DNA of 64,000 nt from Candidatus Thiodiazotropha sp. 'RUGA' (GCA_016842065.1 JAEPDS010000004.1:35892-99891), one strand, 5' to 3'; positions 18,933 through 60,704 are shown, numbered from the stretch's first letter. Numbers and translations: made by a program. Notes: generated by a model from the sequence alone, not told the origin.

Positions 18933-19577
18933 TCAGTAGCGGGCCGGCAACTGCTTATTGATCACATACTGATTGGTGTTGGAGGTGATATAGCCCCCTT
19001 TGACAAGATCCTTGAAGATTCGGCAGACCATCTCACGGGATGCACCAATGCGATTGGCCAACTCCTGCTGGGTGACGTGCCCTTCGATGACCAACTGCCC
19101 ATCCTTCTCTTCAGCCAGACTCAACAGAGTTTTACTCAGTCGTCCGTAGACGTCCGACAGAGCAAGACTCTTGACCTCATCGGTAAGTGTTCTGACCCGT
19201 TGAACCATATCTTTCAGCAGATGGATACTGATATTCGGATTGGCCTGCAAAACCTGATGGAAGGCCTGTTTGGACATGATCGCCACAGTGGTCTTGACAG
19301 TGGTCATGATCGAGGCGGATCTCTTGTAGTCATCGATCAGTGAGAGCTCACCGAAATACTCACCCTCCTCCTGATAGTTGATGATGGCCTCTTTGCCATT
19401 TTCATCGTTCAGGTAGACCTTCACCTTGCCACTCAGGATGACATACAGAGAGTCGCTGTTATCCCCTTCCGAGAGGATGATGGTGTTTCGTGGATAGCTC
19501 CTTCTGACCATACGCTGTTCGATCAGCGCGAGATCGCTTGGGTCCATACCGGTAAAAATGGAGACGTTTTCTATCAT
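18933..19577 (-). CDS. Crp/Fnr-family transcription regulator with a cyclic-nucleotide-type pocket
   Basis: A 214-residue protein. The cyclic-nucleotide-binding domain (about 1-120) holds the phosphate-binding cassette FGELSLIDDYKRSAS, with Glu and Arg at the spacing seen in cAMP-binding proteins. The C-terminal winged helix (about 145-210) has VTQQELANRIGASREMVCRIFKDL; its recognition helix keeps the R-E-x-x-x-R of E. coli CRP, which reads TGTGA half-sites. There are no Fnr-type cysteines, so oxygen sensing is unlikely. It is divergent from the CHASE2 cyclase across 391 bp, suggesting that the cyclase product is its ligand; this is inference. Confidence 0.88.
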   Translation of the reverse strand: MIENVSIFTGMDPSDLALIEQRMVRRSYPRNTIILSEGDNSDSLYVILSGKVKVYLNDENGKEAIINYQEEGEYFGELSLIDDYKRSASIMTTVKTTVAIMSKQAFHQVLQANPNISIHLLKDMVQRVRTLTDEVKSLALSDVYGRLSKTLLSLAEEKDGQLVIEGHVTQQELANRIGASREMVCRIFKDLVKGGYITSNTNQYVINKQLPARY

Positions 19578-19733
19578 GGCTTTATTAATATCGTCTGTGG
19601 GTAAATGTTATCTGCAGGGACCACTCTCCATATCATCCCCCGCCGCTTGCCACATTGCCTGGAATGACGCACCACTCTCCCTTCACGCCCCCATGTTGTA
19701 CACTGTGGATCAAACACCCTGAATACACATACT

Positions 19734-19780
19734 AACCAGGTCAAGGTCTGTTAAGACGAATCCAAATGGATGACCCTGGT
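19734..19780. repeat. 47-bp imperfect palindrome with MITE-like core
   Basis: accaggtcaaggtctgttaa... ends with ...tgaccctggt, an inverted match of about 10 bp. The core ctgttaagacgaatccaaatgg resembles the left end of the 14642 MITE (cctgttaacacgaatccaattgg). The rest of the 19578-19968 gap holds no gene I can support; the agcctc-gct-gaggct hairpin near 19910 is the only other structure. Confidence 0.6.
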
Positions 19781-19968
19781 AAAACTTTAACAGAAAATAG
19801 TGACTTCGACAGTGGCAAGTTCAACCGTATTGAGTTGTGGTGAACCAAATCTCACTCTGAATCGGCTCGCCGGACAATTTGCTTTCTGGGCTTCTGAGGT
19901 GTTTTTAGCCTCGCTGAGGCTGATAACAGGATACTTGTTCGACTGCTTGAAAAACCAACAGGGTCGTT

Positions 19969-22131
19969 GTGGAAAAACATCAGTTTAGATCGGCACTACT
20001 ACTGGGTATCTCGATCGGTATTCTGGGCGCGCTTATCGGCCTGATGCCAATCGGTGCTGCCTGGGAGGAAGATTCCGGTCTGGGCCTGCTGTTCAAGTTA
20101 CGCGGCCAAAGAGCGGCACCTGAATCGATTGAGATCATCTCGATCAATGGAGAAACCGCAGCCCAACTCGGGCTGGGTGAAGAGATCCCGGATTGGCCGC
20201 GCAGCCTGCATGCGGATCTGATCAAACAACTCAATCAGGCCGATGTCAGATTGATCGTTTTCGATATCTTTTTCAAAAAGGCCAGGGCAACCGAATCGGA
20301 CAGTCAGTTTGCTGAATCCATACGCCAAAGCGGTAATGTTCTGTTGGTCTCCTATCAGCAACAACAACAGATCAAGAACAGCAATGGCACCCACATCGTC
20401 GAACGACTGATTCCCCCCGCCGCCATGCTGGCCGATGCGGCACTCGAACTCGCACCCTTCGTACTACCGAAGGTACCGGTCAAGGTCAGCCGCTTCTGGA
20501 CCTTCAGCGGCAACCAGCAGCTGCTTTCCCTGCCGGCTGCGGCACTGCTGCATGCCGCCGACCCCGCAGGCAACAAACTGAAACAGCTGTTGCTTGAATC
20601 CCTTGATCTACAGAACCCACCGCTGCAAGCGCCAAACCTGACAGACCTGCATGAGACCGCGCTGTTCATTCGCAACCATCCCACCCTGATCGATCACATG
20701 AAAATCCAACTGGAGGAGCAGCATAAGCTGAGGATGTCGAATCTCCGTTATCAGCAGATGCAATCTCTGATGGATCTGTTTGACGCCCCGGCCTACCCCC
20801 ACCTCAACTTCTATGGGCCACCAGGCAGCATCAAAACCCACACCTTTCAGGAGATTCTCGCATCACCGGCTGACTCATTGAATCATCTGCGGGGCAAGAC
20901 CCTCTTCATCGGTTATGCGGGGGACTATCAACCGAAACAGAAAGACGGCTTCTACACCGTCTTTTCCCAATCGAATGGCCTGGATATCAGTGGCGTGGAA
21001 CTTGCGGCTACGGCCTACGCCAATCTGCTCCACCAGGAGACCCTGAATCGTACCCATGCAGTCTGGCTCGCGCTGTTGCTGTTCGCCTTTGGCGTGGCAA
21101 TCAGTCTGCTGTTTCGCTACAACCCGGGAGTGAACGGAATTATCGTGGGCTTGGTGGTAGGCAGTGGTTATTTCGGCTCTGTCCATCTGCTGTTCAACCA
21201 CTTCAATCTGTGGCTGCCCTGGTTCATCCCGCTTGTCATTCAACTTCCGGCGGCCCTGATCTACAGTCAGATCTGGCACTATCAACAGATGCGCACCAGC
21301 CGCGAACATCTGCGTCGTCTGTTTGGTTACTATCTGCCGGGTGATGTGATAGAGAAACTGGCTCGGGATAACAGACAGCCAGCCGGCCTGATCGAATCAG
21401 CCTACGGGGTATGTCTCTCCTCTGATGCACAGAACTACACAGCAATGGCGGAAAAGATGCAGCCGAAAGCGCTGCAGGAGTACCTGAACCGCTACTTCAA
21501 AATCCTCTTTACACCGGTACGGGAAAACAGAGGTATCGTTTCGGATGTGGTCGGCGACGCAATGCTCGCCATCTGGCCGGCGACCGAGATCAATCACAAT
21601 CTGGAACAGCTGGCCTGTGATGCGGCCTTGAAGATCGGAACGGCGATCGAGCACTCCGACCTTGAACCCAAACTCTTCACCCGCATCGGCCTGCATGCAG
21701 GTGAACTGGTGATGAGTCATGTGGGCGCTATCGACCATTTCGAATACCGCGCAGTGGGAGACATGGTCAACACCACTTCCCGCATCGAGAATCTCAACAA
21801 ACTCCTGGGCACCCGGATTCTCGCCTCGGAGGACTTCGTCAAACACCTGAAGGGCATCCAGACCCGGGAGCTGGGTCTGTTTACTGTCTCAGGCAAGGAG
21901 AAGCCGATCAAGATCTTTGAGATTGGCGCCAAATCAGACGCTGTCGACGCCACGATGCTCAGCCTGCACCAGGCTTTTGCAGAAGCGCTGCTATTGTGGC
22001 AAATGGGCGAGCGCTCAGCGGCCCACAGGAAATTCCAATCGATCTCTAAGGATTTCCCTTCGGACGGCCCAACAAATTACTACATCAACCAGTTTGCTGA
22101 ACGGAGAAGCGCTGAAAAGAGCAAATACTAA
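19969..22131 (+). CDS. CHASE2-domain class III nucleotidyl cyclase
   Basis: A 720-residue inner-membrane sensor enzyme. Membrane helix 1 (about 8-30) is followed by a periplasmic CHASE2 sensor (about 35-355, including LIVFDIFFKKA), three helices (about 362-440) and a cytoplasmic class III cyclase domain (about 475-650). The metal aspartates are present in CLSSDAQNYTAM and VVGDAMLAIW, as is FEYRAVGDMVNTTSRIENLN. The residues that choose the purine are unusual: Asp where adenylate cyclases have Lys, and Arg where they have Asp or Thr. Nucleotide specificity is therefore open. It starts with GTG and is followed by the FecR-TPR-barrel gene, suggesting one pathway with the divergent Crp-like protein. 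Confidence 0.88.
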   Translation: MEKHQFRSALLLGISIGILGALIGLMPIGAAWEEDSGLGLLFKLRGQRAAPESIEIISINGETAAQLGLGEEIPDWPRSLHADLIKQLNQADVRLIVFDIFFKKARATESDSQFAESIRQSGNVLLVSYQQQQQIKNSNGTHIVERLIPPAAMLADAALELAPFVLPKVPVKVSRFWTFSGNQQLLSLPAAALLHAADPAGNKLKQLLLESLDLQNPPLQAPNLTDLHETALFIRNHPTLIDHMKIQLEEQHKLRMSNLRYQQMQSLMDLFDAPAYPHLNFYGPPGSIKTHTFQEILASPADSLNHLRGKTLFIGYAGDYQPKQKDGFYTVFSQSNGLDISGVELAATAYANLLHQETLNRTHAVWLALLLFAFGVAISLLFRYNPGVNGIIVGLVVGSGYFGSVHLLFNHFNLWLPWFIPLVIQLPAALIYSQIWHYQQMRTSREHLRRLFGYYLPGDVIEKLARDNRQPAGLIESAYGVCLSSDAQNYTAMAEKMQPKALQEYLNRYFKILFTPVRENRGIVSDVVGDAMLAIWPATEINHNLEQLACDAALKIGTAIEHSDLEPKLFTRIGLHAGELVMSHVGAIDHFEYRAVGDMVNTTSRIENLNKLLGTRILASEDFVKHLKGIQTRELGLFTVSGKEKPIKIFEIGAKSDAVDATMLSLHQAFAEALLLWQMGERSAAHRKFQSISKDFPSDGPTNYYINQFAERRSAEKSKY

Positions 22132-22295
22132 TCATTCTCATCTTTTCCATCGAAAGTTTGATCAATACCACTGTATGGAATAAGGAAATGTATGGTGCTA
22201 CATTCGACTTCGTGAATAAAACGCCTAAAATGTAAATCATTGTTTATAAAAAAGGACGAACAGGGACGTTGTCACAACCATCGGGATAATGGAGC

Positions 22296-25200
22296 ATGGT
22301 TACACGATACACAATAACAACTACATTCAAACATCTGTTCATCTTTTGGCTGCTCAGCCTGAGCGCCAGCACCACTCTCCACGCCGATGATTGCCAGCCA
22401 GTGGTCGCCCGCATGGTTTCGCTGCAGGGTGAGGCGGAAGTCCGCAGATCCGGGGCTGACTCATGGAGTTCGGTCAGCCGGGATTCCAGTTTCTGCCCGG
22501 GAGACCAGTTGCGGGTTAAAGATAACAGCCGAGTCGGCTTGCAACTCAACAACGAAACATTTCTCCGCTTGAGTGAACAGAGCAACATCCGTTTTGCCCC
22601 GCCGGCAGACCAACAGACCAGCTGGCTGGAGATCATCAAGGGTATCGCCCACTTCATCAGTCGCATTACCCGCCCAGCGCAGGTCAATACACCTTACGTG
22701 AATGCCTCGATTGAAGGCACTGAATTCACCGTAGAGGTCACCGACAACACAACACTGATCAGCGTTGCAGAAGGCAAAGTGCGAGCGCATAACAGCCAGG
22801 GGGAAGCCCTGCTCAGCAGTGGCGAGATGGCAGAGACAAGCCAGGGCAATGCCCCAGTGATCAGTCAGATGGTCAATCCATTGGATGCGGTACAGTGGGC
22901 GCTCTACTATCCGGCGATCATCGATTTCACCCACCAGGGATCCTCGGTCAATGATTCGATCAACCGATCCTACCAGGCCTATCGTCAGGGTAAGCACTCG
23001 GAAGCCTTCGAACGGCTGGAGAGATCAGCCAGTGAAAAGGATGCGGACACTCTGAGCTTCCGAGCAGCCCTCAATCTGGCGGTTGGCCGAATTGAAGCCG
23101 CCACCCGGGACATACAGCAGTTACTGGCTGACAATCCACAGAGTGCCTCTGCCCTGGCCCTGAAATCGATCGTCGCCACCATCCAGAACCAACAGGACGC
23201 AGCACTCAGCTCGGCACAACAGGCTGTCGCTGCCTCCCCTGAATCGACCACGGCACTGCTGGCACTCTCCTATGCCAGACAGTCCCGCTTCGAACTGGAT
23301 AAAGCCCTTGAAGCGGCAACCGAGGCCACCCGACAGGCCCCAGACAATGCACTCGCCTGGTCCCGTTTATCACAACTTCACCTGATGTTCCGTCAGATGG
23401 ATGAGGCGACTGCAGCAGCGCAGAAGGCCGTGGAAATCAATCCACAAATCGCCCTGAGCCAGACCACTCTGGGCTTTTCCCACTTGATACAGCTTGACCT
23501 GGAGGATGCCCGGCAGGCTTTCCAACAGGCCACCTCACTCGATCAGGCATCCCCCATGCCGAGACTTGGCCTTGGACTGGTGACGATCCGCGAAGGCGAC
23601 CTTGCCGAAGGCCGGCAACTATTGGAGACAGCGGTCCATCTCGATCCGGGTAATGCCCTGTTGCGCAGCTATCTGGGCAAGGCTTACTACGAAGAGAAGC
23701 GCAATGATGAGGCAGGAAAGCAGTTTAAACTCGCCAAACAACGCGATCCACTTGACCCGACAGCCTGGTTCTATGATGCGATTCTTAAGCAGAGTGAAAA
23801 TCGCCCTGTAGAAGCCCTGACAGACATCCAACATGCCATTGATCTGAACGACAACCGTGCTATCTATCGCTCTCGTTTACTACTGGATGATGATCAGGCT
23901 TCGCGAAATATCAGTCAGGCTCGAATTTTTACAAATCTTGGAGCTGATGGTGTTGCTCGAAAAGAGAGCTCACGATCTCTGATCAATGATCCTGGAAACG
24001 CTTCAGCCCATTTATTTCTATCTGAGGCCTACTCTGGGCTGGTACGTCATGAAAAAGCGCAGGTCAGTGAGCTCCTGCAAGCCCAACTATTACAGCCAGA
24101 GATCACGCTACCAGTAAGCCCAAGTTCGAGTGTACCCGATTTACACGCATTCAGTGGCAGCGGGCCATCTGTTGCAGGATTCAATGAATACAACCCTATG
24201 TTCAATCGCAAGGGGTTTTCAGTGCTATTAAGTGGGGTGACTGGTGGAAACAATACCCGTGGTAGTGAAATTGTACTCGGCGGTTTTACCAATAGGGGCA
24301 TGCTTAGTGCCGGTCACTATCGAGAAAGTTCGGACGGTTTCCGCATAAACAATGACAGTGACCAAACTATTAGTAATTTGTTTGGGCAGTACCGTATTAC
24401 CCCTGAACTAAGCGTCCAAGGAGAAATCAGGAAACGAGAAGGTGATTTTGGCGATTTAGCTCAAAGATTCGATTCTGATGTATTTTCTAGATCTTCTAAC
24501 AGAGCTATAGATTCTGATACCTACAGACTGAGTGCTAATTATTCCCCCAGCAATCAAAACACCTTTCTGATTAACGCAATTCAGGAGGACCTTTTAGATG
24601 GTACAGCGATCGGCTCTCTAGTCGTGGACGGTGACAGAGAGAACTCTCAATACGAAGGTCAATATATTTATCAGGGCAATCTCTTTAAAGTGGTATCAGG
24701 CTTCACCATTGCTGATGAAGATTCAATAATCACAACAAATATCCCCACGCCTTTTGGATTGATAACTCAAACTGAAATGGAAGATAAAGAAGGCAGCAAT
24801 GGATATATCTACATACATATTCCTTGGTCAACAATTACAGGTGTAATCGGTGCGGAATATGCTCAAGCCGAAGACAACATTCAGATAGATGAAAGCCAAA
24901 TCAACCCAAAGCTTGGCGCCATTTGGGACATCACAGACAACTCCACGTTACGCATAGCTGCCTTCAGAACTTTACGAGCTAATTTCATAAATCAATCTCT
25001 TAGTCCAACTCAAGTTGCTGGATTTAACCAAGTATTTGACGACTCTTTTGGATCCGATGCATGGCGCTACGGCATCGCACTTGATAGTGTTTTACTGAAT
25101 AATCTATATGGCGGTGTGGAGTTTACTCGCCGAACGCTAACAAGCTTTCTCACTGCCGATACACTCCCAGTCCAAGACCAAGAAGAAGAAAATCATTCTG

Positions 25201-25640
25201 CCTATATCAACTGGAGTCTTTCAAACAACACCATCATGAGCGGTCGTTATTTCTTTGATGATTTTGAAAGTGAGTACATAGATGGCGAAGTTATCATTGA
25301 CCAACCTGTTGAAATGAACACCCAAACACTCTCTTTGAGCATAAAACACTCCACCTCAATTGGGCTGTTTGCCGAATTGGAGGCAGTACACATATCTCAA
25401 GAGATCAATGACACATTAGAAACTGGAGGACTGACATCTTCAAGCGATCGTTTCTGGCTTGGCAACATCTCTCTAGGAATGAAGTTCCCAAAAAGAACGG
25501 GGATATTAGCACTTGATATACATAACGTGTTCGATCGTGAATTCAATTACCAGAGCATCGATCCAGGCACAGGCACACCTGTCACATCAAGCAACTACCC
25601 TGAGCGTTACGCAATTGTACGAGCACATGTATGGTTTTAG
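22296..25640 (+). CDS. FecR-TPR-outer-membrane beta-barrel fusion protein
   Basis: A giant exported protein of 1114 residues. It has a signal peptide (about 1-31), then a FecR-type domain (about 40-165, with the diagnostic VNTPYVNASIEGTEFTVEV), about nine tetratricopeptide repeats (about 225-525), a linker, and a C-terminal beta-barrel of about 470 residues. The barrel ends like a TonB-dependent receptor (DIHNVFDREFNYQ...YAIVRAHVWF, terminal Phe). TPR plus barrel is the plan of polysaccharide exporters such as PgaA, and FecR domains are found beside CHASE2 cyclases. The role is inference: an envelope sensor or exporter coupled to the cyclase. Base composition drops sharply from about 23860, in the middle of the gene, so it may be chimeric. 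Confidence 0.85.
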   Translation: MVTRYTITTTFKHLFIFWLLSLSASTTLHADDCQPVVARMVSLQGEAEVRRSGADSWSSVSRDSSFCPGDQLRVKDNSRVGLQLNNETFLRLSEQSNIRFAPPADQQTSWLEIIKGIAHFISRITRPAQVNTPYVNASIEGTEFTVEVTDNTTLISVAEGKVRAHNSQGEALLSSGEMAETSQGNAPVISQMVNPLDAVQWALYYPAIIDFTHQGSSVNDSINRSYQAYRQGKHSEAFERLERSASEKDADTLSFRAALNLAVGRIEAATRDIQQLLADNPQSASALALKSIVATIQNQQDAALSSAQQAVAASPESTTALLALSYARQSRFELDKALEAATEATRQAPDNALAWSRLSQLHLMFRQMDEATAAAQKAVEINPQIALSQTTLGFSHLIQLDLEDARQAFQQATSLDQASPMPRLGLGLVTIREGDLAEGRQLLETAVHLDPGNALLRSYLGKAYYEEKRNDEAGKQFKLAKQRDPLDPTAWFYDAILKQSENRPVEALTDIQHAIDLNDNRAIYRSRLLLDDDQASRNISQARIFTNLGADGVARKESSRSLINDPGNASAHLFLSEAYSGLVRHEKAQVSELLQAQLLQPEITLPVSPSSSVPDLHAFSGSGPSVAGFNEYNPMFNRKGFSVLLSGVTGGNNTRGSEIVLGGFTNRGMLSAGHYRESSDGFRINNDSDQTISNLFGQYRITPELSVQGEIRKREGDFGDLAQRFDSDVFSRSSNRAIDSDTYRLSANYSPSNQNTFLINAIQEDLLDGTAIGSLVVDGDRENSQYEGQYIYQGNLFKVVSGFTIADEDSIITTNIPTPFGLITQTEMEDKEGSNGYIYIHIPWSTITGVIGAEYAQAEDNIQIDESQINPKLGAIWDITDNSTLRIAAFRTLRANFINQSLSPTQVAGFNQVFDDSFGSDAWRYGIALDSVLLNNLYGGVEFTRRTLTSFLTADTLPVQDQEEENHSAYINWSLSNNTIMSGRYFFDDFESEYIDGEVIIDQPVEMNTQTLSLSIKHSTSIGLFAELEAVHISQEINDTLETGGLTSSSDRFWLGNISLGMKFPKRTGILALDIHNVFDREFNYQSIDPGTGTPVTSSNYPERYAIVRAHVWF

Positions 25641-25714
25641 CACTACCGGTTACTTGTAGATTTGAATAACACTAAACTTATAGCGTCACAGACCACAACC
25701 CCCAAGGAGAAAGC

Positions 25715-26104
25715 ATGAAGAAAATACTAAGTTACACAATAGCTTTAACGCTATTTTCAATATTTATCTCGGGCTGCGCACCCTCCCATTACAAAACTTC
25801 AAAAATATTGAAGCAGGATAATGCCCAAGTAGCCATAACTCTGAACAAAGGCTTTGAGACAACAGTCATATCTACAAATGACGGCAAACGAATTGAGCCC
25901 ATTTGTGTTATGGATGAAAAAGCGAAGAAAAGGAATGCATCTGTACCAATGTGTGAAGAGAATGTATTTTCTGATAAAGACAATAAAGTACTTTATGAGA
26001 AGACATTCAACGTAAAAGTCGTTGAAGGTTCAGTTTGCGTGAAGGTAAGAATTGGGTCAGCTGTCTACAAATTCTGTGATCCTCCTTACGATTTAGGCTT
26101 CTAA
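25715..26104 (+). CDS. Small lipoprotein, unknown
   Basis: A 129-residue lipoprotein. The signal peptide MKKILSYTIALTLFSIFISGC ends at a clear lipobox (ISGC). The mature part is Lys-rich with four further cysteines (PICVMDE, PMCEEN, SVCVKV, KFCDPP), which could form two disulfides in the periplasm. Ribosome site aaggaga precedes ATG by 5 nt. It follows the FecR-TPR-barrel gene by 74 nt in the same direction and shares its AT-rich composition, so the two probably arrived or evolved together. I recognise no family. Confidence 0.7.
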   Translation: MKKILSYTIALTLFSIFISGCAPSHYKTSKILKQDNAQVAITLNKGFETTVISTNDGKRIEPICVMDEKAKKRNASVPMCEENVFSDKDNKVLYEKTFNVKVVEGSVCVKVRIGSAVYKFCDPPYDLGF

Positions 26105-46688: not shown

Positions 46689-49280
46689 TCAGCTAGACAA
46701 CCATATGATGTTACTTTGTCCTTTTTTACTGCTTAGATAGTCCTCGATTGGTTTAGGTCGAGCAATACTGTAGCCTTGGCCATAATAGATACCAATCCTT
46801 TTCAGCTCCTCCCGGATCAAACTGTCCTCGACAAACTCAGCTATGGTAACCAGCCCCATCGTATCGGCAACTGTTTTAATCGCCTCCACCATACCCTTAT
46901 CAACAGGACTTTTATTTATCTCCTTAACGAACATTCCATCTATTTTAACGAAGTCGATTGGAAGATTCTTGAGATACCCGAAAGATGATAGACCAGAGCC
47001 AAAATCATCCAGCGCAAACCGACAACCAAGCGCTTTCAACTCATTAATAACCTTCAGCGCGCTGGTCAGATTTTGTATCGCCGCCGTCTCCGTCACCTCG
47101 AATACCAGCTTTTGTGGGTTTAGCTGGTACTTTTCCAGTAGCAATTTGAGTTTGGGTGAAAGTTCATTCCGACTTAATGTCATGCCGGAGATATTGATAA
47201 AGCAGTCTGGGTAATCAGTGCCAGACCGAGCCAGAAGCTGCATGACTTTTTCAATCACAGCGTAGTCGATACGATCTATCAAGTCATACCGCTCTGCTGA
47301 TGGCAGAAAAGCTCCCGGTGGTATAAGCTCTCCTTCCTGGGACTTCATCCTGACCAATATCTCAATTCCTTTGATCATCAAATCATCACTCTGCAAACCT
47401 GCAATGGGTTGTGCGTAGAGAATCAATCGATCATCGCTTAATGCATTGTTTATTTGTGAAACCCATTGCATTTGCCCCAACAACTGCTTGGTGGAACTGC
47501 TGTCGCGCTGATAGACCGTGATACAGTTTCTGCCAGAATCCTTAGCAGAGTAGCAGGCCGCATCGACTGAGCTCATCAGCATTCCAATACTCTCGCTATA
47601 TTGATCAATCTCTACAATCCCAATACTGATACTGATGCGGAAGTTATGCTCCTGCCAGGTAAAGGTATGCTCCTGAATCTCTTTGCGTAATCCATTCACA
47701 CGATCCTGAGCCATGGGAAGAGGACAATCAGTCAAAATCGCAGCAAACTCATCCCCACCCACACGTGCGAGCACATCGCTGCCCCGAAAATGGCGCCGCA
47801 TGATTGCTGCGATCTGTCTTAACAGCTCATCTCCTGCTACATGGCCACAGGTATCATTCACGACTTTGAATTGATCCAGATCCATAAAGCAGAGAATATG
47901 TTGGTGCCCCCGTTTTCTGGCCGATTCCAAGGATTGTTCCAGATGCGATTCAAATGCACTACGATTCAACAGCTCAGTAAGATTGTCATGACTGGCTTGT
48001 CGGTAAAGCTCCTCCTGCAACCGCCTCTCTCTTGTCACGTCTCTGATAACAACAACGATACCTGACATCTCCTTATCATTACTCAGAATCCGATTGGCGG
48101 TTATATTCACATGCAGGTTGTTACCATCAACCAACGCCAAACGAGCCAACTGACTCACGACGGCCCCACTCTTGTTCAGCTGACACTGAACCAACAGGTC
48201 ATTGATTTGAGTATCCCGCTCTTCATCCAGCAGGACAAATACCGCTTCAAAGTGCTTCCCAACCACAGATTCAGCATCCTGATCAAGGATTTTCAAGGCG
48301 GAATCATTTAAATAGACCACACGACCATTTGCATCTGTTGTAACAACGGCATCAGCAATCGATGTTAAAGTCGTACGTGCCTGATTTCGTTCATCGATCA
48401 ATGCCTGCTCAGCAAGTCTCAGAGCAGTTACATCCTGTATGTAGACATAGACCTCTTCCACGAGATCAATCCACTGGTAGTGCAGTAGCAGGTGTTTGTA
48501 ACCGGTATCCACTTCCGCATAGAGTTGATTCTCGCCACTGCCGATTCTTCTGAGGATTTCATCATGATCATCCGGTAATAAGATGCCATTGTCTTTGGCA
48601 TGCAATAGATCGATCAACCGCTTGAATGCCGGATTGCAGAATATCTCCTTACCATCCAGATCAAACGCAGCTATCGGGTTAGGATTAGCCTTAGGATATG
48701 CAGCCAGTCGTTTGTTACGTGATTCTGCATCTTTCAGCTCTTCAACCATGTTGGTAAGAAGATCCGCTTCCTGCCTGCGCGAAGCAAAAAGATAGAAAAG
48801 CAGGGAAAAGACGAAAGAGATACTCAAACCTGCCAGGATCATTTGAAAAACAAGATCACTGGTTAACTTGTACGCACCCTCCAGGCTGTAAGCCATCATC
48901 AACTTGGCTTTACCCCGATAGGAGTAGGTAATCTCCTTTTCCGTTACAAATCTTCTGTCAGCCGGGTTCAGAGGGCCGTAACCGGCAATCATAAAGCCGT
49001 TCTTTGAGATCAGTTCAACCTCATCTACTTCAACATACTGACCTGCCCACTGTTTAAACAATAATGCAATCGAATCGTAGTTTCCTTTTTGCAACTCTTC
49101 CTGGGTAATAAAAGAGATGACTTCCATTTGCCCACTGGCAAGTGCTTTGGTGACCTCCATGTGATGGTCGTGCTGATGCTTGATGAATACCCATATCGCG
49201 CCAAACAAGAGAATCATGAAAAACAGCGTTGATATACTGACAAGCAGCAGAATGGGTTTGCGATTCACATGCTCTACCAC
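46689..49280 (-). CDS. Membrane PAS-GGDEF-EAL protein (c-di-GMP turnover)
   Basis: An 863-residue inner-membrane enzyme. Two membrane helices (about 10-32 and 150-172) enclose a periplasmic domain of about 115 residues. Two PAS-like domains follow (about 195-290 and 305-420), then GGDEF (about 430-590, with intact ARVGGDEFAAIL) and EAL (about 610-855, with EILVR, DDFGSGLSSFGYL, VKIDGMFV). Both catalytic signatures look intact, with EIL in place of EAL, so it may both make and degrade c-di-GMP. It overlaps the upstream PhnD-like gene by 7 nt. That protein probably presents a ligand to the periplasmic domain. Confidence 0.9.
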   Translation of the reverse strand: MVEHVNRKPILLLVSISTLFFMILLFGAIWVFIKHQHDHHMEVTKALASGQMEVISFITQEELQKGNYDSIALLFKQWAGQYVEVDEVELISKNGFMIAGYGPLNPADRRFVTEKEITYSYRGKAKLMMAYSLEGAYKLTSDLVFQMILAGLSISFVFSLLFYLFASRRQEADLLTNMVEELKDAESRNKRLAAYPKANPNPIAAFDLDGKEIFCNPAFKRLIDLLHAKDNGILLPDDHDEILRRIGSGENQLYAEVDTGYKHLLLHYQWIDLVEEVYVYIQDVTALRLAEQALIDERNQARTTLTSIADAVVTTDANGRVVYLNDSALKILDQDAESVVGKHFEAVFVLLDEERDTQINDLLVQCQLNKSGAVVSQLARLALVDGNNLHVNITANRILSNDKEMSGIVVVIRDVTRERRLQEELYRQASHDNLTELLNRSAFESHLEQSLESARKRGHQHILCFMDLDQFKVVNDTCGHVAGDELLRQIAAIMRRHFRGSDVLARVGGDEFAAILTDCPLPMAQDRVNGLRKEIQEHTFTWQEHNFRISISIGIVEIDQYSESIGMLMSSVDAACYSAKDSGRNCITVYQRDSSSTKQLLGQMQWVSQINNALSDDRLILYAQPIAGLQSDDLMIKGIEILVRMKSQEGELIPPGAFLPSAERYDLIDRIDYAVIEKVMQLLARSGTDYPDCFINISGMTLSRNELSPKLKLLLEKYQLNPQKLVFEVTETAAIQNLTSALKVINELKALGCRFALDDFGSGLSSFGYLKNLPIDFVKIDGMFVKEINKSPVDKGMVEAIKTVADTMGLVTIAEFVEDSLIREELKRIGIYYGQGYSIARPKPIEDYLSSKKGQSNIIWLSS

Positions 49281-50176
49281 TTGACACCTCTCTGCTCCAA
49301 CGTATTCAGAATTCCTCGCAAGCCATCGTAGTCCTGATGATTGGTTTGCACCAGTGCAGTGGCTGTCTGCTTAATCGGCTTCAGTACAGATGCTGTATCA
49401 CTGTTTTTGTGGTCGAGTTTCAGAAGCGCGTCTTTCAACTTATCGAGTAACTGGCTATCTGTGTTCAGCGTTCCGATAAATAGATGCTCAGATACTGCCT
49501 CTGTTGTCTCAATGGCTACGATTCCGTGTCTCTTATATTTTTCAAAGACTGCCTCTTTCACGGCACCGGCATCGGCATCACCGGCCAGCACCGCCAGAGC
49601 GACATTATTATGATTGCTGTAGTGGCGATAACCGGCAAAATCATGCAAATCGATACCAGCCTCGTAGAGCATCTGTCTGGGTACCAAATGACTCATGGTT
49701 GAGGATCTGTTCCCAAAGGCAAACTGGCGTTGCCTGAGATCTTCGATATCGCTAATCTCACTATCATCACTAACGATAATTTTACCAGTAAATGTCGGTT
49801 TACCGTTTACTTCCAATCGGGCCAATAGGGGAATATCGTTATTCGTACGCGTCAAAGAAACCAACAATGAAGGCCCGATATAGGCAAAATCAACATCACC
49901 AGCGAGGATTGCATCATTATGCGACTGGTAGGAATCCCCGATTCTAACCTCGATCGTCTGACCTAACTCCAAACTCAGATAATTCGCCAACGGCTGAAAC
50001 ATCTCTTTCAGTTCATTGTGAGGACGGTATGGATGCACACCCATTACCAGACTTTCAGAAGCATACCCGATCGTAGAGACAAACAACCACACAGCCAGCC
50101 CTGAAAGGACCCACTGATGACCAGGCATTCTGGTGCCGTTCCGTTTGAAACAGGCACTAGGCTTCAGTAACCACAT
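49274..50176 (-). CDS. PhnD-like periplasmic binding protein paired with the GGDEF-EAL enzyme
   Basis: A substrate-binding protein of the phosphate/phosphonate (PhnD) superfamily, about 300 residues. The signal peptide is QWVLSGLAVWLFVSTIGYASES. Family blocks are LVMGVHPYRPHNELKEMFQPLANYL, DFAYIGPSLLV and FAFGNRSSTMSHLVPRQML. No ABC permease or ATPase genes are present, so it is probably a sensory rather than a transport component. It overlaps the GGDEF-EAL gene by 7 nt. The ATG at 50176 follows the track's TTG by one codon; the ATG at 50128 is another possibility. Confidence 0.88.
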   Translation of the reverse strand: MWLLKPSACFKRNGTRMPGHQWVLSGLAVWLFVSTIGYASESLVMGVHPYRPHNELKEMFQPLANYLSLELGQTIEVRIGDSYQSHNDAILAGDVDFAYIGPSLLVSLTRTNNDIPLLARLEVNGKPTFTGKIIVSDDSEISDIEDLRQRQFAFGNRSSTMSHLVPRQMLYEAGIDLHDFAGYRHYSNHNNVALAVLAGDADAGAVKEAVFEKYKRHGIVAIETTEAVSEHLFIGTLNTDSQLLDKLKDALLKLDHKNSDTASVLKPIKQTATALVQTNHQDYDGLRGILNTLEQRGVKW

Positions 50177-50179
50177 CAA

Positions 50180-54083: not shown

Positions 54084-55505
54084 TCAAAACTGGAAGTAGA
54101 TGAAAACCTGTTTTTGCAATGGCACAAAAAACAGTAACATCAGTACCATGTAGAGATAAGAAACATACTGTATGGCTGGGTTGGCAGTTACCAGGTAGAG
54201 TAGATCATTCTTTCTCTCGGTCATGTATTCAAAAAACATCAGCGGAACGACAAAGAACAGGATATTACCTAGCACATAGATCGAATAATCGGTAATCCGA
54301 TAGTCAGTTGCGAGTAAGTAGACCATATCCACAACCTGTTGCATTGACTCCGCCCTGAACAGCAACCAACTGATACAGGTCAGATGGAACAGGATAACGA
54401 CATACAGTACATGCCGACCCAGCGACGTTGGCTGAGTGAAATAGTCCTTTCCTTTAGCCGCTTCTATGGCATGGTAGACAACCAATATGGCACCGTGAAA
54501 CAGCCCCCATACGATGAATGTCCACCCTGCCCCATGCCAGAGACCACCTAAAAACATGGTAAGAACCAGATTCCGAAAAGTCAGAAAATTACCCAGCCTT
54601 CCACCACCCAAAGGGATATAGATATAGTCTCTGATCCAGGTGGAGAGACTGATATGCCAACGGGACCAGAAATCACTCGGGGATGTTGCAAAATATGGAT
54701 TCCTGAAATTCCACATCAAATCGAAACCCATCCACCTGGCAACACCTTTTGCAATCGATGAATAGCCGGAAAAATCGCCATAGATTTGAAAGGCAAAGGC
54801 ATACAAACCGACCAGCACCTCAAAACCTGTCAGTTCATTAACGGGCTTTGAAAAAATCGTATTGACTATTGGTGCCATATTGTCAGCAATGACAACTTTC
54901 TTGAACAATCCGGAGATGACCAGAAACAGCCCTTCTGAAAACGCTGGCCCATCTAATTTACGAACCTGAAGTATCTGTGGCAACAGATGACTGGCTCTCT
55001 CAATCGGCCCGGCCACCAGTTGAGGAAAAAAGGAGACATAAAGGGCAAAATCGAGAAACTTATCCGTTGGTTGAACTTTGCTTCTGTAGGTATCAATGGT
55101 ATAGCTGAGGGTTTGAAAGGTATAGAACGAGATACCAACAGGAAGAATAATATTCAACACAGGCAAACTGACATCGACGCCCACTGTGCCGAGCATCGCG
55201 GCAAATTCATTGGAGAAGAAGTTGTAATACTTGAAGAATCCCAAAAAGCCCAGATTGGTGAAAATCGATAACAACAGCAGCTGCTTTCTGAGTTTGGCGT
55301 CATCCTGTTTTGCAATATTCAGGGCAACGAAGTAGTCAACGACAGTAGAAATAAAGATCAGCGACAGAAAACGATAATCCCAGTAACCATAGAAGATATA
55401 GCTGGCCACCAGCAACATTCTGTTCTGATATTTATGAGGAAGCCGCAAATAGAGCAGCATGACGACTGCAAAAAAGGCCCAGAATATGTAACTGTTGAAT
55501 AACAT
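54084..55505 (-). CDS. MBOAT-family O-acyltransferase (AlgI-like)
   Basis: A 473-residue membrane-bound O-acyltransferase with about ten helices. Typical blocks are PVGISFYTFQTLSYTIDTYR, FVSFFPQLVAGPIERA (here YVSFFPQLVAGPIERA), DFWSRWHISLSTWIRDYIYIPLGG and the catalytic-His region GGLWHGAGWTFIVWGLFHG. AlgI and DltB homologues move acetyl groups across the membrane onto a polymer. The next gene upstream, an SGNH-like protein with 3 nt between them, is the expected periplasmic partner (as AlgJ/AlgX or DltD). Together they suggest O-acetylation of the exosortase-locus polysaccharide. Confidence 0.92.
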   Translation of the reverse strand: MLFNSYIFWAFFAVVMLLYLRLPHKYQNRMLLVASYIFYGYWDYRFLSLIFISTVVDYFVALNIAKQDDAKLRKQLLLLSIFTNLGFLGFFKYYNFFSNEFAAMLGTVGVDVSLPVLNIILPVGISFYTFQTLSYTIDTYRSKVQPTDKFLDFALYVSFFPQLVAGPIERASHLLPQILQVRKLDGPAFSEGLFLVISGLFKKVVIADNMAPIVNTIFSKPVNELTGFEVLVGLYAFAFQIYGDFSGYSSIAKGVARWMGFDLMWNFRNPYFATSPSDFWSRWHISLSTWIRDYIYIPLGGGRLGNFLTFRNLVLTMFLGGLWHGAGWTFIVWGLFHGAILVVYHAIEAAKGKDYFTQPTSLGRHVLYVVILFHLTCISWLLFRAESMQQVVDMVYLLATDYRITDYSIYVLGNILFFVVPLMFFEYMTERKNDLLYLVTANPAIQYVSYLYMVLMLLFFVPLQKQVFIYFQF

Positions 55506-55508
55506 TCT

Positions 55509-56429
55509 CTACCGCCCACTCAATTCCTGATTTATCAGCCTGCCCAGAGTGGCGGTAAATTGCTCACGACCTTTCTCATTAAAATGGACACCATCTTTAT
55601 AGATCGCACCGAAAGATCTGAAGTTCTCCCTGTAATCCTTGTAGAGATACGCCCGCTTCTGTAGCGTCTCTTTCAACTTCTGGTTGACTGAATAGGCTCC
55701 CTCGATTGGCATCGCCATCATGATCAGTTTGATCCCCCGCTGATCCAGCTGGTCGATCAAATCATTCAACATTCTGTAATCCGGCATCAGCTGGTTGGCT
55801 TGAGTCTGATCACCGGCCTCAACCGGTGCACCAGCCTGGTTCTGTGCCTGAACGAACTGTTCATAGTGGGGCACCAGATTATTCAATATTTTGTTTCGGA
55901 CCGCTTCCCTGTTGACGAAGAGTTTCGATGTCCAGCCAATAACGAACTCAGATAACTCGGCAAAATCGCTCATTCCATAATCGAAAAGCAGCAATCCATC
56001 ACCCATTCCGGAGAAGTAACCACCCAATCGGCTTGGATTTGGTCGATAATCATCATTGAGCAATCCCCAGGCGAAACCGATCACCAGATAATCCAGCTGC
56101 ATATCAGGTGTAATCAGATTGTTTCTCAGGATCATATTCCAATCCCAGAGCGAGGTACCATCCGGAGTTATTTTCTTAACCAGATAGTCATCAGATAACT
56201 GCCTGTCCAGCTGATCGATGTCGACTGCCTCATTGATCAAGGAGTTTCCAAGAAACAAGATATTTGTACCTTGGTGCTGTTCATACTCTGCTGCAATGTT
56301 CGGTATCTGATTAATATGATTCAGATTACCTGAAAGACGGTTTTCAAATGTTCGAATACCGATCTCCAGGAGTGCAACTGTGAGGAGCACGGCAATCAGG
56401 ATGAATAGGGTGTGCTTGGCCCTCATCAT
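55509..56429 (-). CDS. SGNH/DltD-like periplasmic acyl-transfer partner of the MBOAT
   Basis: A 306-residue protein with an N-terminal membrane anchor (TLFILIAVLLTVALLEIGI) and a periplasmic SGNH-type domain. NILFLGNSLINEAVD carries the Ser of block I (GNS), MMAMPIE the next region, and IYKDGVHFNEKG the D-x-x-H pair near the C terminus. This resembles the AlgJ/AlgX/DltD group. It is translationally coupled to the phosphatase gene upstream (4-nt overlap) and nearly abuts the MBOAT gene, so the pair likely acetylates the polymer. Confidence 0.8.
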   Translation of the reverse strand: MMRAKHTLFILIAVLLTVALLEIGIRTFENRLSGNLNHINQIPNIAAEYEQHQGTNILFLGNSLINEAVDIDQLDRQLSDDYLVKKITPDGTSLWDWNMILRNNLITPDMQLDYLVIGFAWGLLNDDYRPNPSRLGGYFSGMGDGLLLFDYGMSDFAELSEFVIGWTSKLFVNREAVRNKILNNLVPHYEQFVQAQNQAGAPVEAGDQTQANQLMPDYRMLNDLIDQLDQRGIKLIMMAMPIEGAYSVNQKLKETLQKRAYLYKDYRENFRSFGAIYKDGVHFNEKGREQFTATLGRLINQELSGR

Positions 56430-57055
56430 GTGCCACCCTTGGCTGTGATACCATTCACTGACTGATCGCTATCAACCACCTTAGCGGTGATATCAACCAC
56501 ACATTGCTCTAGTTGAGATATAACCTGACGGGTCTTTTCATTCCCCTGATTGTATGGATCTATTACCTCTACAGAGAGATCCGGTGAAAACGCACCAATC
56601 CAGATGGTTTTGTTCAAAGCTGACTGGTCCATTGAACTGAGCAGATCCCAGTTCTTTCGATCCATGATCACAATCAGGTCAGCCCACTTGATATCATCTT
56701 GTGAAATCCTGCTTGATCGATGTGCTGTCAGGTCATAACCCCGCTCGGCCAGCAGTTTCTGATACTCTTCGACACAACTTCGACCCGTTTTATCGTGAAA
56801 CCCGGCAGACCTGATCTCTATATCCGCATTGGAAAGTGATTTCTTAAGCAGGTATTCAACTAACGGGCTCCGATAGATATTGCCATAGCAGAGCACCAGG
56901 ATATGATCTATGTTCTGAGCTGAATTGATCGCGGCTTCGCTTTTTTCCCTGACAACCCGCAACAATTTCTGGTGACGAATACGTCTCTTAATCGAGCGGA
57001 TAATACGAACTAAAAGTGATTTCGGCATATCATTTTCAGTCATACTGTCACTCAT
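56426..57055 (-). CDS. Low-molecular-weight protein tyrosine phosphatase
   Basis: A 209-residue protein with an LMW-PTP domain (about 45-200). The P-loop is LCYGNIYRSPL (C-x5-R-S) and the general acid lies in VEVIDPYNQG (D-P-Y). The first 40 residues are a basic extension (LVRIIRSIKRRIRHQKLLRVV) absent from the minimal enzyme, which may bind membranes. Such phosphatases (Wzb type) regulate the tyrosine kinase of polysaccharide export, but no kinase gene is visible here. It overlaps both neighbours by 4 nt, so it is fully coupled in the operon. Confidence 0.88.
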   Translation of the reverse strand: MSDSMTENDMPKSLLVRIIRSIKRRIRHQKLLRVVREKSEAAINSAQNIDHILVLCYGNIYRSPLVEYLLKKSLSNADIEIRSAGFHDKTGRSCVEEYQKLLAERGYDLTAHRSSRISQDDIKWADLIVIMDRKNWDLLSSMDQSALNKTIWIGAFSPDLSVEVIDPYNQGNEKTRQVISQLEQCVVDITAKVVDSDQSVNGITAKGGT

Positions 57056-57915
57056 ACATCAAAATTCATTCGCTGCAACACATCTGAAACAGTCGAGAAC
57101 TCGAAATCCCTTATCAGCTTCAGCAACCTGGTTTCAAATTTATCAATATTGTTATAGTGCCTGAACTCAGAGAGCCTACTCGATTTAATCTTCGGCTGTC
57201 CTTCGTCGATTTCCCATGGATGCATGTAGAAAATAAATGGCATCTGATCATTCCGGTTGACGCGATTCAATCCCGCCTTCGACAGCCAATAGGGAAACAG
57301 TCTGAAATAACCTCCGCCACTCACCGGTAAACGACGCTTGGCAATGCCCACAGTCGAGAGGGGAAACTCGATAATCTCATTACCTTTTGCAGTTTTTAAC
57401 CGGTGAGGCATGGTCTTTGCCCCAGGGATACCATATCGATCATGCATGATGGGAAAAATGCTCGAGTCGTAGGTAAAACCACATTCCGTGAGAATGTCCA
57501 GTGCCCAAAGGGATTTTTCTGTAATCGAGTAACTGGCGGCGCGATAGCCTTTGATCGGTTTGCCAATGATATCTTCAAGAATCGCTTTGGATTTCTTGGT
57601 CTCTTCAAGGAATTTATCGGGCGTTTGGTTATACACCAGATCATGGCTATAGCCATGACAGGACACTTCATGTCCCAGTTCCGAAATCTCGGTAATCAGC
57701 TTTTTATTACGTTCGGCCACCCAACCCAATACAAAGAATGTGCCCTTTATACTATTGTCATCAAATATCTTCAGAATCCTGTGTGTATTGTCATAGACAC
57801 GTGACTCATAGCCTTCCCAGTCAGCTTTTGTTACCTGCTTGTTAAATGCCGAGACCTGGTAGTAGTCCTCTACATCGACGGTTATGGCATTAATTTGTCT
57901 GTTTTGCGAAATCAT
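57052..57915 (-). CDS. Exosortase-system polysaccharide deacetylase
   Basis: A 287-residue NodB-type deacetylase that removes acetyl groups from N-acetylated sugars. The metal and catalytic motifs are ITVDVEDYYQV, EVSCHGYSHDLVY (H-x3-H) and KGYRAASYSI. The overall sequence, including PVSGGGYFRLFPYW and FYMHPWEID, is that of the exosortase A-associated deacetylase family. No signal peptide is evident, as usual for the family. It follows the exosortase gene by 52 nt and overlaps the phosphatase gene by 4 nt. Confidence 0.93.
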   Translation of the reverse strand: MISQNRQINAITVDVEDYYQVSAFNKQVTKADWEGYESRVYDNTHRILKIFDDNSIKGTFFVLGWVAERNKKLITEISELGHEVSCHGYSHDLVYNQTPDKFLEETKKSKAILEDIIGKPIKGYRAASYSITEKSLWALDILTECGFTYDSSIFPIMHDRYGIPGAKTMPHRLKTAKGNEIIEFPLSTVGIAKRRLPVSGGGYFRLFPYWLSKAGLNRVNRNDQMPFIFYMHPWEIDEGQPKIKSSRLSEFRHYNNIDKFETRLLKLIRDFEFSTVSDVLQRMNFDV

Positions 57916-57967
57916 GTTTATGTTTGTTATATATAATTCGTTGCAATAACTTTATAAAGATCAGATC

Positions 57968-59515
57968 TCAGTTCTTTTGTGTTGAATAGTGTTGCTCAAT
58001 TTTATCGATTACCAAATCAGCAAATCTTGTCATGCTTTCACGTTCCATTACACCATCACCAGTTTTATCTGTAGAGATCACGACCACAGCTGCATCATGA
58101 CGGCCTTTCAAGGCTCCCAATATGCCATACAGTTTGCTTTGCAGCCTGCTCGATGAGATCTCACCCCCTATGTAATACCATTGCCATATAATGCGCTCAT
58201 TCCTCCTACTATCAACGACTGTCTCTTCCAGCAGTGGAACTGTACGCCCAGCTGATAGCTTGATCTCCCGCTTGACGCGTTCACTGCTGATCCAGTCATC
58301 CCTATTATAAGCCTGATTCAGATCATTGACTGCCTCTTTTCCTTGCTCCTGTGTTGCGTAATAGGCGGTATAAAACTCTGCATTGGTACCGGCAACCAGG
58401 TATGCGGCCCGTTTTTCAAAATCCGCATTGACCCAGACTGGATTCCAGCTTTCATCGAGCGCCACTTCAGTGAGTTCCAATTGACTGAAGCTGAAGTCAA
58501 AATCATGGCTTCCACGCATAACATCGCCATTCATGGCAATCACACTATATATCGGACCGGCACTGGCGGATACCAATAACGCACTTGCAATTAAGGTTTT
58601 TTTACTGTAGGGAACCTTTGCTACAGCGGCCTTATCTGGCTCAGCGTCAGACTGTTTTTGATCGATCTTGAGTCTCTTCTCATAACTCACTGTGGCATAC
58701 ATAAATATTGCGTAGCAGATTACAAACACCACCCATCCAAGCCAGATATGATCATTCAGCAGACTGTGTGTCATATTTGTGTAGTGCCCTGAAAGCACCA
58801 CAATATAGATACGAATCGTGTTTGAGATAAACGCAACGCCTGACGCCAGCAACAGATAGACAATTGCGTGTCGGAGTGAATAGTGGGAGAAGAATGAGTA
58901 GAGAATTGCAAGGGTTATTGCAGCAATCTGATACCTCAGGCCACTGCAGGTATCCCCCACTTCAAACACCCCTTCCGGGATGGTAATAAAATAGGATTCC
59001 TGGAATGAGACATAACCGGTCAAGTGCAGCATTTGGTTAACAAATACTGCCGTTGGCACCTGCAGTGGCTGTGACAGTACAGACCAGACGGAGGTTGCAC
59101 TGATCAATACCAGGATCGGTAAAACCATTCTGGCAGTATGCTTCATTCCAAACAGAGCCATCACACTGACACTCAGTATCATGATCAGTACCATTTGGGA
59201 TCCAACCTGTATCTGAGCGATATCAGATAACAGCCAGATCACCGAAAGGATGGCGAGCAGCAGGAGCAACATAGGCCTGAAGCTTATCTGCAGCTCATGA
59301 CGGCGTGTGTACCACTCCCTGGCAAGCAGATAATACGATAGGGGCAGCAGCAGCAATCCATGGGATTGCAGGCTGTTTTCAGCAACCCACAAACGGTAAA
59401 AGCCGAGTGATGTTTGCCCATACACCAGGGTCAGGATCAACACACATGCAAGCAGAACCGCACCGCTAAACAGTTGATCTGGAGATAACTCTTTTAAAGT
59501 CATTCGTTCCGTCAT
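57968..59515 (-). CDS. Exosortase with fused C-terminal EpsI domain
   Basis: A 515-residue polytopic protease/transpeptidase that processes PEP-CTERM-like sorting signals. The first 290 residues hold about eight helices and the catalytic triad: Cys in EVGDTCSGLRY, Arg in FISNTIRIYIV and His in LNDHIWLGWVVF. A linker and another helix lead to a periplasmic EpsI-type domain (DUF3485, about 310-510). The XrtA versus XrtD subtype is unclear. The deacetylase and hydrolases point to XrtA, while the fused EpsI domain and the VPLPA-CTERM protein in this window point to XrtD. It heads a seven-gene operon. Confidence 0.92.
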   Translation of the reverse strand: MTERMTLKELSPDQLFSGAVLLACVLILTLVYGQTSLGFYRLWVAENSLQSHGLLLLPLSYYLLAREWYTRRHELQISFRPMLLLLLAILSVIWLLSDIAQIQVGSQMVLIMILSVSVMALFGMKHTARMVLPILVLISATSVWSVLSQPLQVPTAVFVNQMLHLTGYVSFQESYFITIPEGVFEVGDTCSGLRYQIAAITLAILYSFFSHYSLRHAIVYLLLASGVAFISNTIRIYIVVLSGHYTNMTHSLLNDHIWLGWVVFVICYAIFMYATVSYEKRLKIDQKQSDAEPDKAAVAKVPYSKKTLIASALLVSASAGPIYSVIAMNGDVMRGSHDFDFSFSQLELTEVALDESWNPVWVNADFEKRAAYLVAGTNAEFYTAYYATQEQGKEAVNDLNQAYNRDDWISSERVKREIKLSAGRTVPLLEETVVDSRRNERIIWQWYYIGGEISSSRLQSKLYGILGALKGRHDAAVVVISTDKTGDGVMERESMTRFADLVIDKIEQHYSTQKN

Positions 59516-59635
59516 CTTGGTGTCTCAGTCAGCTGTCCACAAAGACCAATGTTTAGAAAACACTGGTAATGGTCTGATCAGATTGAGTGTGGATTTTCAA
59601 ATACAAACCAATCTGTATTCAAACATCAGTCCCGA

Positions 59636-60664
59636 TCAGTAATCACCTCTCCCCAGTAACTGGTATAGCGATCTGTTGCCTTTGAAGAGGTCCACAATCG
59701 AACCACGCTTCCGCACATCAAATCGATATCCCTTGCAAGTATAGATACTGAGCTGATCCTTAGCTGAATCAATGACTTCCAGTAAGTCACACAGCTTTTG
59801 CTCAGTCTCATACAAGGCCCTTATCCAATCACCAATATCGGCGCTGAGCTCAGCCTCAAGGAGATCGGTTAAAAGAATCCCAATGTTGCCATCTTCAGCC
59901 GTAACTTCTGCCAGCTCCTCGGGTAGATCGTTGACCGGCAATTTGCTCAATCCGGCCAACCCGCAGAGCAGTGGGTGCGAACCGAACAAGGCGCAATACC
60001 TGTTATCAATCTCAGGGCAAACACCAAATCCGGAGAGCCAAATCCCATTCACGTAGGAGTCTCCCTGAAACATCCTTTGTTGGGTCATCTCCTCCTGATA
60101 AAACAACATCTGTATTTCATTCAGAAGCCCCCGCCAATAAGCGCCATCTGGGCCTGACGGCAGGAAGGTTTCAATATGCCTTCCCGCAACCAACTCGATC
60201 TCGGATGTCGTCATCTCCGGCAGAGCACTCAGCTTCATACACCACTGCCCCTGAGCGACCTCTACCAGTGACAACATGTCGGCTTCGAAATGGGAATTGA
60301 ATCGACTGATCAGCCGATGGGCATAATCACTCTCGATGGACTGGGGAGCCAATCTGATCAATATCAGCCTGTCACGATCCGCCAACAGATGGACAGGGGT
60401 CGCCAAAGCCCAACAATCCCCGTCTGATTGCCGATCAGGTGTATATGCTGTGACAGCGCCGGAAGGAAGATCACAATCGGCAACTGCAGCAACCCCAAAC
60501 AGACTGAACAGAGTTGTCGTCAAATCTGCGCCGGGTTCGGCGACTGACTTTGCCTTACCAAGCACTCTCTCCAGGTTTTTCGGCCGAGTTTCCTGATCAT
60601 TGAGCTGTTTTAGTGCCGTATCCCAATGCAGGCCCGGCAGCAACAGGTCGATCTGTCTCCTCAT
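59636..60664 (-). CDS. RpfE-like conserved protein (annotated elsewhere as phosphoglycerate-mutase-like)
   Basis: A 342-residue cytoplasmic protein. QIDLLLPGLHWDTALKQL, FGVAAVADCDLPSGAVTAYTP, WALATPVHLLADRDRLILI and VNGIWLSGFGVCPE are the blocks of a proteobacterial family that is often labelled RpfE or 'cofactor-independent phosphoglycerate mutase'; I see no phosphomutase active site. The true function is unknown. It follows thrC by about 40 nt on the same strand and is probably co-transcribed with it. The ATG at 60664 is preferred over the GTG two codons earlier. Confidence 0.7.
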   Translation of the reverse strand: MRRQIDLLLPGLHWDTALKQLNDQETRPKNLERVLGKAKSVAEPGADLTTTLFSLFGVAAVADCDLPSGAVTAYTPDRQSDGDCWALATPVHLLADRDRLILIRLAPQSIESDYAHRLISRFNSHFEADMLSLVEVAQGQWCMKLSALPEMTTSEIELVAGRHIETFLPSGPDGAYWRGLLNEIQMLFYQEEMTQQRMFQGDSYVNGIWLSGFGVCPEIDNRYCALFGSHPLLCGLAGLSKLPVNDLPEELAEVTAEDGNIGILLTDLLEAELSADIGDWIRALYETEQKLCDLLEVIDSAKDQLSIYTCKGYRFDVRKRGSIVDLFKGNRSLYQLLGRGDY

Positions 60665-60704
60665 AGTCACGACATTCGTTCAACAAGGAGGGATTACTCG
60701 GTCA

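Follow-up and report, generated by a model that had tools for sequence, protein, structure and literature searches.

How could a signal at the surface of a symbiotic bacterium be carried through the envelope to a transcription factor, and could a handful of neighboring genes be enough to do it? The question is raised by one locus in a stretch of 64,000 nucleotides (the window) from Candidatus Thiodiazotropha sp. 'RUGA', a genome assembled as 4.77 Mb in 177 contigs, whose closest named relatives are Candidatus Thiodiazotropha, the sulfur-oxidizing symbionts of lucinid clams. In it, a gene for a Crp-family regulator (18933-19577, minus strand, 214 aa; open reading frame and Pfam) is divergent, across an intergenic region at 19578-19968, from a gene for a CHASE2-class III nucleotidyl cyclase (19969-22131, plus strand, GTG start, 720 aa; open reading frame, Pfam, and structure model). 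On the plus strand there follow a gene for an NsrA-like outer-membrane protein made of a FecR domain, TPRs, and a 22-strand β-barrel (22296-25640, 1114 aa; open reading frame, Pfam, and model) and one for a small lipoprotein with four conserved Cys (25715-26104, 129 aa; open reading frame and comparison of relatives). All four reading frames are open where an original prediction, made from the DNA alone, had placed them, and the Pfam domains, the barrel model, and a lipobox confirm the parts that it listed, just as coordinates and strands confirm its divergent regulator and cyclase.

We argue that this locus likely encodes an envelope-to-transcription pathway of the NsrA-CyaK-Clr type, a reading that draws, through sequence and structure models, on the domains and their likely compartments, on the catalytic residues, and on the conserved linkage. 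In such a pathway, the 22-strand barrel, alone or together with the lipoprotein, would bind an external ligand; the resulting change would travel along the TPR superhelix in the periplasm to the FecR domain, which belongs to the same chain; FecR would in turn act on CHASE2, the periplasmic part of the cyclase; and the catalytic part, in the cytoplasm, would make a cyclic nucleotide that activates the neighboring Crp-family regulator.

Is there a precedent for such an arrangement? The original prediction knew of no characterized system with this layout, and here it was mistaken. The NsrA-CyaK-Clr system of Sinorhizobium meliloti was reportedly the subject of a study by Garnerone in 2018. The response of S. 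meliloti to ribosomal protein uL2 depends on both NsrA and CyaK (PMC7529298), with cAMP as the activator of the Clr regulon in the next step (PMC13001267); this is a direct precedent for the predicted pathway. NsrA (1200 aa) consists of FecR (66-160), TPR, and barrel regions, and it matches the window protein by BLASTP at 5e-15 over FecR and TPR with 23% identity, the barrel match being weak. In both systems, a FecR-TPR-barrel protein with a signal peptide has its gene next to that of a CHASE2 class III cyclase, the readout is a Crp-family regulator with a pocket for cyclic nucleotides (for the window, at the level of sequence), and the owner is a host-associated symbiont. They differ in that nsrA lies directly upstream of cyaK and overlaps it, whereas the barrel gene of the window lies downstream of its cyclase; in that no Crp gene accompanies nsrA and cyaK; in the active site, which is Lys/Ser in CyaK and Asp/Arg in the window; and in the lipoprotein and the exchange of receptor heads, which belong to the window system. 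The Sinorhizobium pathway, moreover, has been shown to act, whereas that of the window is read from its genes and from models.

Other known systems resemble parts of this one. In Campylobacterota, CHASE2 cyclases are clustered with a FecR-domain outer-membrane protein (PMC9239204), but together with a phosphodiesterase and a separate TPR protein, and an adjacent Crp gene is not described there; with NsrA, these clusters make the layout one that is known in kind. In the BiofilmReg operon of Burkholderia contaminans (PMC5192318), too, a FecR-domain protein has a CHASE2 sensor as its neighbor and the output is transcriptional, although the operon uses LysM-FecR with a histidine kinase and response regulator, where the window has TPR-barrel-FecR with a cyclase and Crp. 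The iron-citrate signaling system FecA-FecR-FecI shares the 22-strand barrel of the TonB-dependent receptor kind and the FecR relay; the window system, in contrast, joins barrel and FecR in a single chain, lacks both plug and sigma factor, and has a CHASE2 cyclase in the place of FecI. Finally, the available part of the paper on GcyB-GcyC-CgrA of Rhodospirillum centenum (PMC4681086) describes cyclase genes clustered with a Crp-family regulator in a cGMP-based system, and that part does not mention CHASE2, FecR, or a barrel protein. The novel features are a Crp gene adjacent in many lineages, an active site with Asp/Arg, the exchange of barrel and lipoprotein, and the one-to-one bookkeeping of FecR and CHASE2 domains. 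The findings also extend a host-signal pathway of a legume symbiont to chemosynthetic clam symbionts, Nitrosomonas, Desulfobacterota, and methanotrophs.

If the locus works in this way, which nucleotide carries the message? In the cyclase, Pfam recognizes CHASE2 (2e-25; residues 34-375, 20068-21093, plus strand) and Guanylate_cyc (3e-12), and the model runs from an N-terminal transmembrane helix through a periplasmic CHASE2 domain and more transmembrane helices to a class III catalytic fold (residues 475-655) with C-terminal helices after it. The class III pair of metal-binding aspartates (Asp486 and Asp530) and the transition-state pair (Asn601 and Arg605) are present and are kept in nearly all of 81 cyclase sequences. 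At the two substrate-specifying positions, where Lys (for ATP) and then Asp, Thr, or Ser are canonical, the enzyme has Asp526 (codon 21544-21546, plus strand; its register confirmed by alignment to solved cyclases) and Arg594 (codon 21748-21750, plus strand; alignment). Since the adenine-specifying pair of canonical adenylyl cyclases is absent from the window cyclase, we have filed it as a nucleotidyl cyclase and left its substrate unspecified. Asp/Arg is found in 70 of 82 cyclase sequences, a figure biased upward by sampling with peptide seeds, since the Asp is part of one of them; orthologues found without seeds are likewise Asp/Arg, except that of a distant relative (L060), whose cyclase is degenerate at the first motif. 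Guanylyl cyclases have Glu at the first substrate position and varied residues at the second (PMC4215837); the first residue of the window enzyme is acidic but not Glu, and Arg is not among the residues listed for guanylyl cyclases. One of them, Cya2 (2w01), which has Glu at the first position, is among the best or close PDB matches of the cyclase.

The regulator was predicted to have a cAMP-type pocket, and part of that prediction stands. Pfam finds cNMP_binding (3e-24) and HTH_Crp_2, the recognition helix is of the CRP type (RExxxR), and the phosphate/ribose cassette GE..RS is intact (G76 E77, R86 S87), but where Escherichia coli CRP has its base-contacting Thr127, the window regulator, like nearly all its relatives, has Leu (Leu131), and Ser128 has become Thr132. 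The counterpart of Thr127 in Clr contacts the adenine amine (PMC10127613). We rejected an identification of the regulator as the global CRP on these two residues and on its score of 143 bits, below the 266-bit cut-off of the NCBIfam CRP equivalog model.

With Asp/Arg in the cyclase and Leu at the adenine-contact site of the regulator, the messenger may differ from cAMP. Quite possibly, to judge from these residues, it does, with cGMP the likeliest substitute, and the cAMP that the original prediction implied is so far unsupported, cyclase and regulator both departing from the residues that specify it. It is possible, too, that the nucleotide is cAMP after all, if Asp526 and Arg594 do not read the base and the Leu131/Thr132 pocket accepts cAMP: the pocket is otherwise CRP-like, and S. 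meliloti CHASE2 cyclases produce cAMP in vivo, although the acidic residue at the Lys position is a guanylyl-cyclase signature (as Glu, including that of Cya2) and Asp/Arg has been retained in 70 of the 82 sequences. This alternative bears on the messenger alone and leaves the pathway that we favor intact. No operator of the CRP type was found in the window's intergenic regions. The best candidate for TGTGA-N6-TCACA matched at 8 of 10 positions and was rejected, being equalled or bettered in 15% of shuffles, and the region between crp and the cyclase has no such site above shuffled expectation. A GGTGA-N6-TCTCA-like element recurs in several relatives, without aligning as a conserved block. 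Perfect copies of TGTGA-N6-TCACA precede the FecR-TPR-barrel gene, right after the cyclase, at two loci of Nitrosomonadaceae (L119 and L156), as though the receptor were under CRP control in these bacteria. The Asp/Arg cyclases as a family are candidates for bacterial cGMP signaling or for other signaling without cAMP.

And what of the receptor? The 1114-residue protein matches FecR (4e-15) and TPR (9e-17) in Pfam, and its AlphaFold2 model (mean pLDDT 74, from an alignment of 15 rows) begins with an N-terminal signal helix and continues, all on the plus strand, with the FecR domain (residues 38-191; 22407-22868), TPR helices (residues 220-599; 22953-24092) that Foldseek matches to the O-GlcNAc transferase superhelix, and the barrel (residues 640-1113; 24213-25634). 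In this predicted model, the barrel has the 22 strands of TonB-dependent receptors, and its best Foldseek matches are the receptors FpvA, FecA, BtuB, and FptA; the plug of such receptors is missing, the gap between TPR and barrel being only ∼40 residues, and a Pfam search of the protein found neither Plug nor TonB_dep_Rec. The signal helix at the N terminus departs from the classical FecR anti-sigma layout (cytoplasmic N terminus and single transmembrane helix), and a Pfam scan of neighboring open reading frames turned up no sigma factor. A PHROGs search gave TPR-like matches only, and the FecR and CHASE2 segments were without a convincing solved-structure match by sequence. Pfam, the structure model, and Foldseek agree that one chain carries both a FecR domain and an outer-membrane barrel, and the predicted Cys-rich lipoprotein is likewise borne out, its lipobox and four Cys being conserved in four relatives. 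It belongs to no family in a Pfam search (a weak ExtJ-like match, E 0.002, fell under the model's cut-off and was not used), and its gene was seen only after a barrel of type A, together with which it is exchanged.

That exchange is seen most easily against a close relative, G008, to which the window has 96% identity in the cyclase, 99% in Crp, 97% in FecR, and 94% in TPR, but only 42% in the barrel; against the much more distant G007, it has 58% in the cyclase, 59% in FecR, and 55% in the barrel. At the nucleotide level, identity to G008 falls from 95-97% to ∼50-67% from ∼23,850-23,900 and remains low through the lipoprotein, whose own identities (37% and 50%) track the barrel's in G008 and G007. 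Elsewhere, the proteins of G005 and G018 are nearly 100% identical over their first 150 residues and then of different types, and in G007, which has two copies, these are 82-85% identical for roughly their first 90 residues. By these comparisons, the block of TPR end, linker, barrel, and lipoprotein (23850-26104, plus strand; nucleotide identity vs. G008) has been swapped by recombination onto a conserved FecR-TPR base. The evidence is the discordant identities and not GC content: the barrel is low in GC (42%), but since all relatives examined show a lower-GC barrel, we discarded this as an indication that it was recently imported. A kept base with an exchanged head is the pattern expected of a receptor whose ligand, or whose attacker, keeps changing, and the barrel is probably an exchangeable ligand-binding head.

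Might the barrel instead be an export porin of the PgaA, BcsC, PelB, or Slam kind, which makes or exports a surface product under the regulation of the cyclase and Crp? TPRs followed by a barrel are indeed the layout of an exopolysaccharide porin, there is a weak match to a PgaA model in the TPRs (E 0.004), a gene for a sugar transferase is close by, an exosortase locus lies at a distance of 32 kb, and literature on S. meliloti may be cited in its favor (PMC5498481). However, the barrel has 22 strands and finds its best fold matches among TonB-dependent receptors, not 16-strand porins; the chain carries a FecR domain; its closest characterized homologue, NsrA, is a signal receptor; and exchange affects its barrels but spares the base. 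We regard export as improbable.

The conserved linkage expected by the original prediction is found in relatives. Counted over 80 named loci, the FecR-TPR-barrel gene adjoins the cyclase outside the genus at 54 of 59 testable loci, and the Crp gene does so at 24 of 57 (not adjacent in the other 33); at named Thiodiazotropha loci, the figures are 9 of 16 for the barrel gene and 16 of 16 for Crp. The loci span Gammaproteobacteria, Betaproteobacteria (Nitrosomonas), Desulfobacterota, and Nitrospirota, a conservation across phyla that chance falls far short of explaining. Because gene order and strand vary (fecR-cyc-crp at L059, crp-cyc-fecR at L058), the linkage is not merely inherited position, and its conservation makes the mechanism plausible. 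Within the genus, crp is divergent from cyc in every member with enough sequence, and full-length cyclase orthologues occur in 19 of 21 other members searched, the gene being frameshifted in G014 and not detected in G011. The original interpretation as a whole thus keeps its linkage, its barrel and FecR on one chain, and its pathway, now with a precedent, and loses its lack of precedent and its implied cAMP.

Findings in the genus also speak for another view: that the Crp-cyclase pair is self-sufficient, with CHASE2 sensing a periplasmic small molecule and the barrel protein a passenger or a separate system. Nine Thiodiazotropha genomes have cyc-crp without an adjacent barrel gene, and many CHASE2 proteins have no FecR neighbor. 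All nine, however, carry elsewhere a FecR-TPR-barrel paralogue, type B (∼1080-1110 aa, 36-39% identity), with no cyclase or Crp nearby in all five of those genomes in which the locus was read. In one of them, G004, there are three CHASE2 and three FecR domains in two adjacent pairs, leaving over only this cyclase and the unlinked type-B protein; elimination settles, at the level of gene content, that the window-type cyclase would pair with the type-B protein there. With the 54 of 59 adjacencies outside the genus and the genetics of NsrA and CyaK also against it, self-sufficiency seems to us very unlikely. G011, which has a type-B barrel protein and no detected cyclase, is an exception. In G014, whose genome is 2.6 Mb, cyc and crp are both frameshifted and a FecR domain is missing; an assembly error is possible, as is joint decay of the whole pathway (L054/L095). 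Type B itself is a second, unlinked FecR-TPR-barrel gene at a conserved locus (L217 7045-10284, L218 7826-11062, and equivalents in other Thiodiazotropha), and in G002, G012, G016, G017, G007, and G018, it is found at the cyclase locus, where it replaces type A or lies beside it.

We return, then, to the pathway and to its central step: does FecR speak to CHASE2? The signal that CHASE2 senses has been stated to be unknown (PMC5192318). In the window's genome, there are exactly three FecR and three CHASE2 domains, and they occur as three adjacent pairs with different outputs (cyclase, response-regulator-linked, and GGDEF-EAL), which suggests that FecR domains are partners of CHASE2, commonly if not universally. 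Among 60 CHASE2 loci sampled across Pseudomonadota, a FecR open reading frame lay within 1.5 kb in 21 and within 6 kb in 26, rates that are approximate because six of the 60 picks are unconfirmed as CHASE2 proteins; the pairing, then, is enriched yet falls short of universality, and the notion of a universal partner was given up. For the remaining CHASE2 genes (many of them for Ser/Thr kinases or cyclases), neighbors include GAF/HD, PP2C, and SpoIIE proteins, and FecR was not among the 25 commonest Pfam families. We think a contact between FecR and CHASE2 probable, and the one-to-one bookkeeping, with three outputs in one genome, turns the question of what CHASE2 senses into a binding experiment. 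A fuller proposal is that a FecR-paired CHASE2 senses the FecR domain of a co-encoded envelope protein and not a small molecule, that the window protein is a one-chain FecA/FecR whose barrel-lipoprotein head is exchanged among strains, and that a guanylyl or other non-adenylyl Asp/Arg cyclase is read by a matching Crp-family regulator; that all of this should hold together is less likely than not. That the cyclase domain is catalytically dead and a mere scaffold, as its noncanonical substrate pair and the degenerate L060 might hint, is highly improbable given Asp486, Asp530, Asn601, and Arg605.

Several other gene arrangements were seen along the way. One of the two further FecR-CHASE2 pairs in the genome is a LysM-FecR gene directly upstream of CHASE2-GGDEF-EAL (L062 8709-12820, G000:C3), a pair with a c-di-GMP output; the other is an operon of response regulator, LysM-FecR, and CHASE2 protein in the gene order of BiofilmReg (L061 2672-4762 and below, G000:C63), so that a BiofilmReg-type operon is present in the window's own genome. 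In the window, an exosortase/exopolysaccharide locus (54084-60670, minus strand) with exosortase EpsH, a polysaccharide deacetylase, and an MBOAT protein lies in a lower-GC stretch (46-60 kb, ∼44%), and at 46689-50179 (minus strand), a gene for a PAS-GGDEF-EAL protein overlaps one for a phosphonate-type periplasmic binding protein, likely a ligand-to-c-di-GMP pair.
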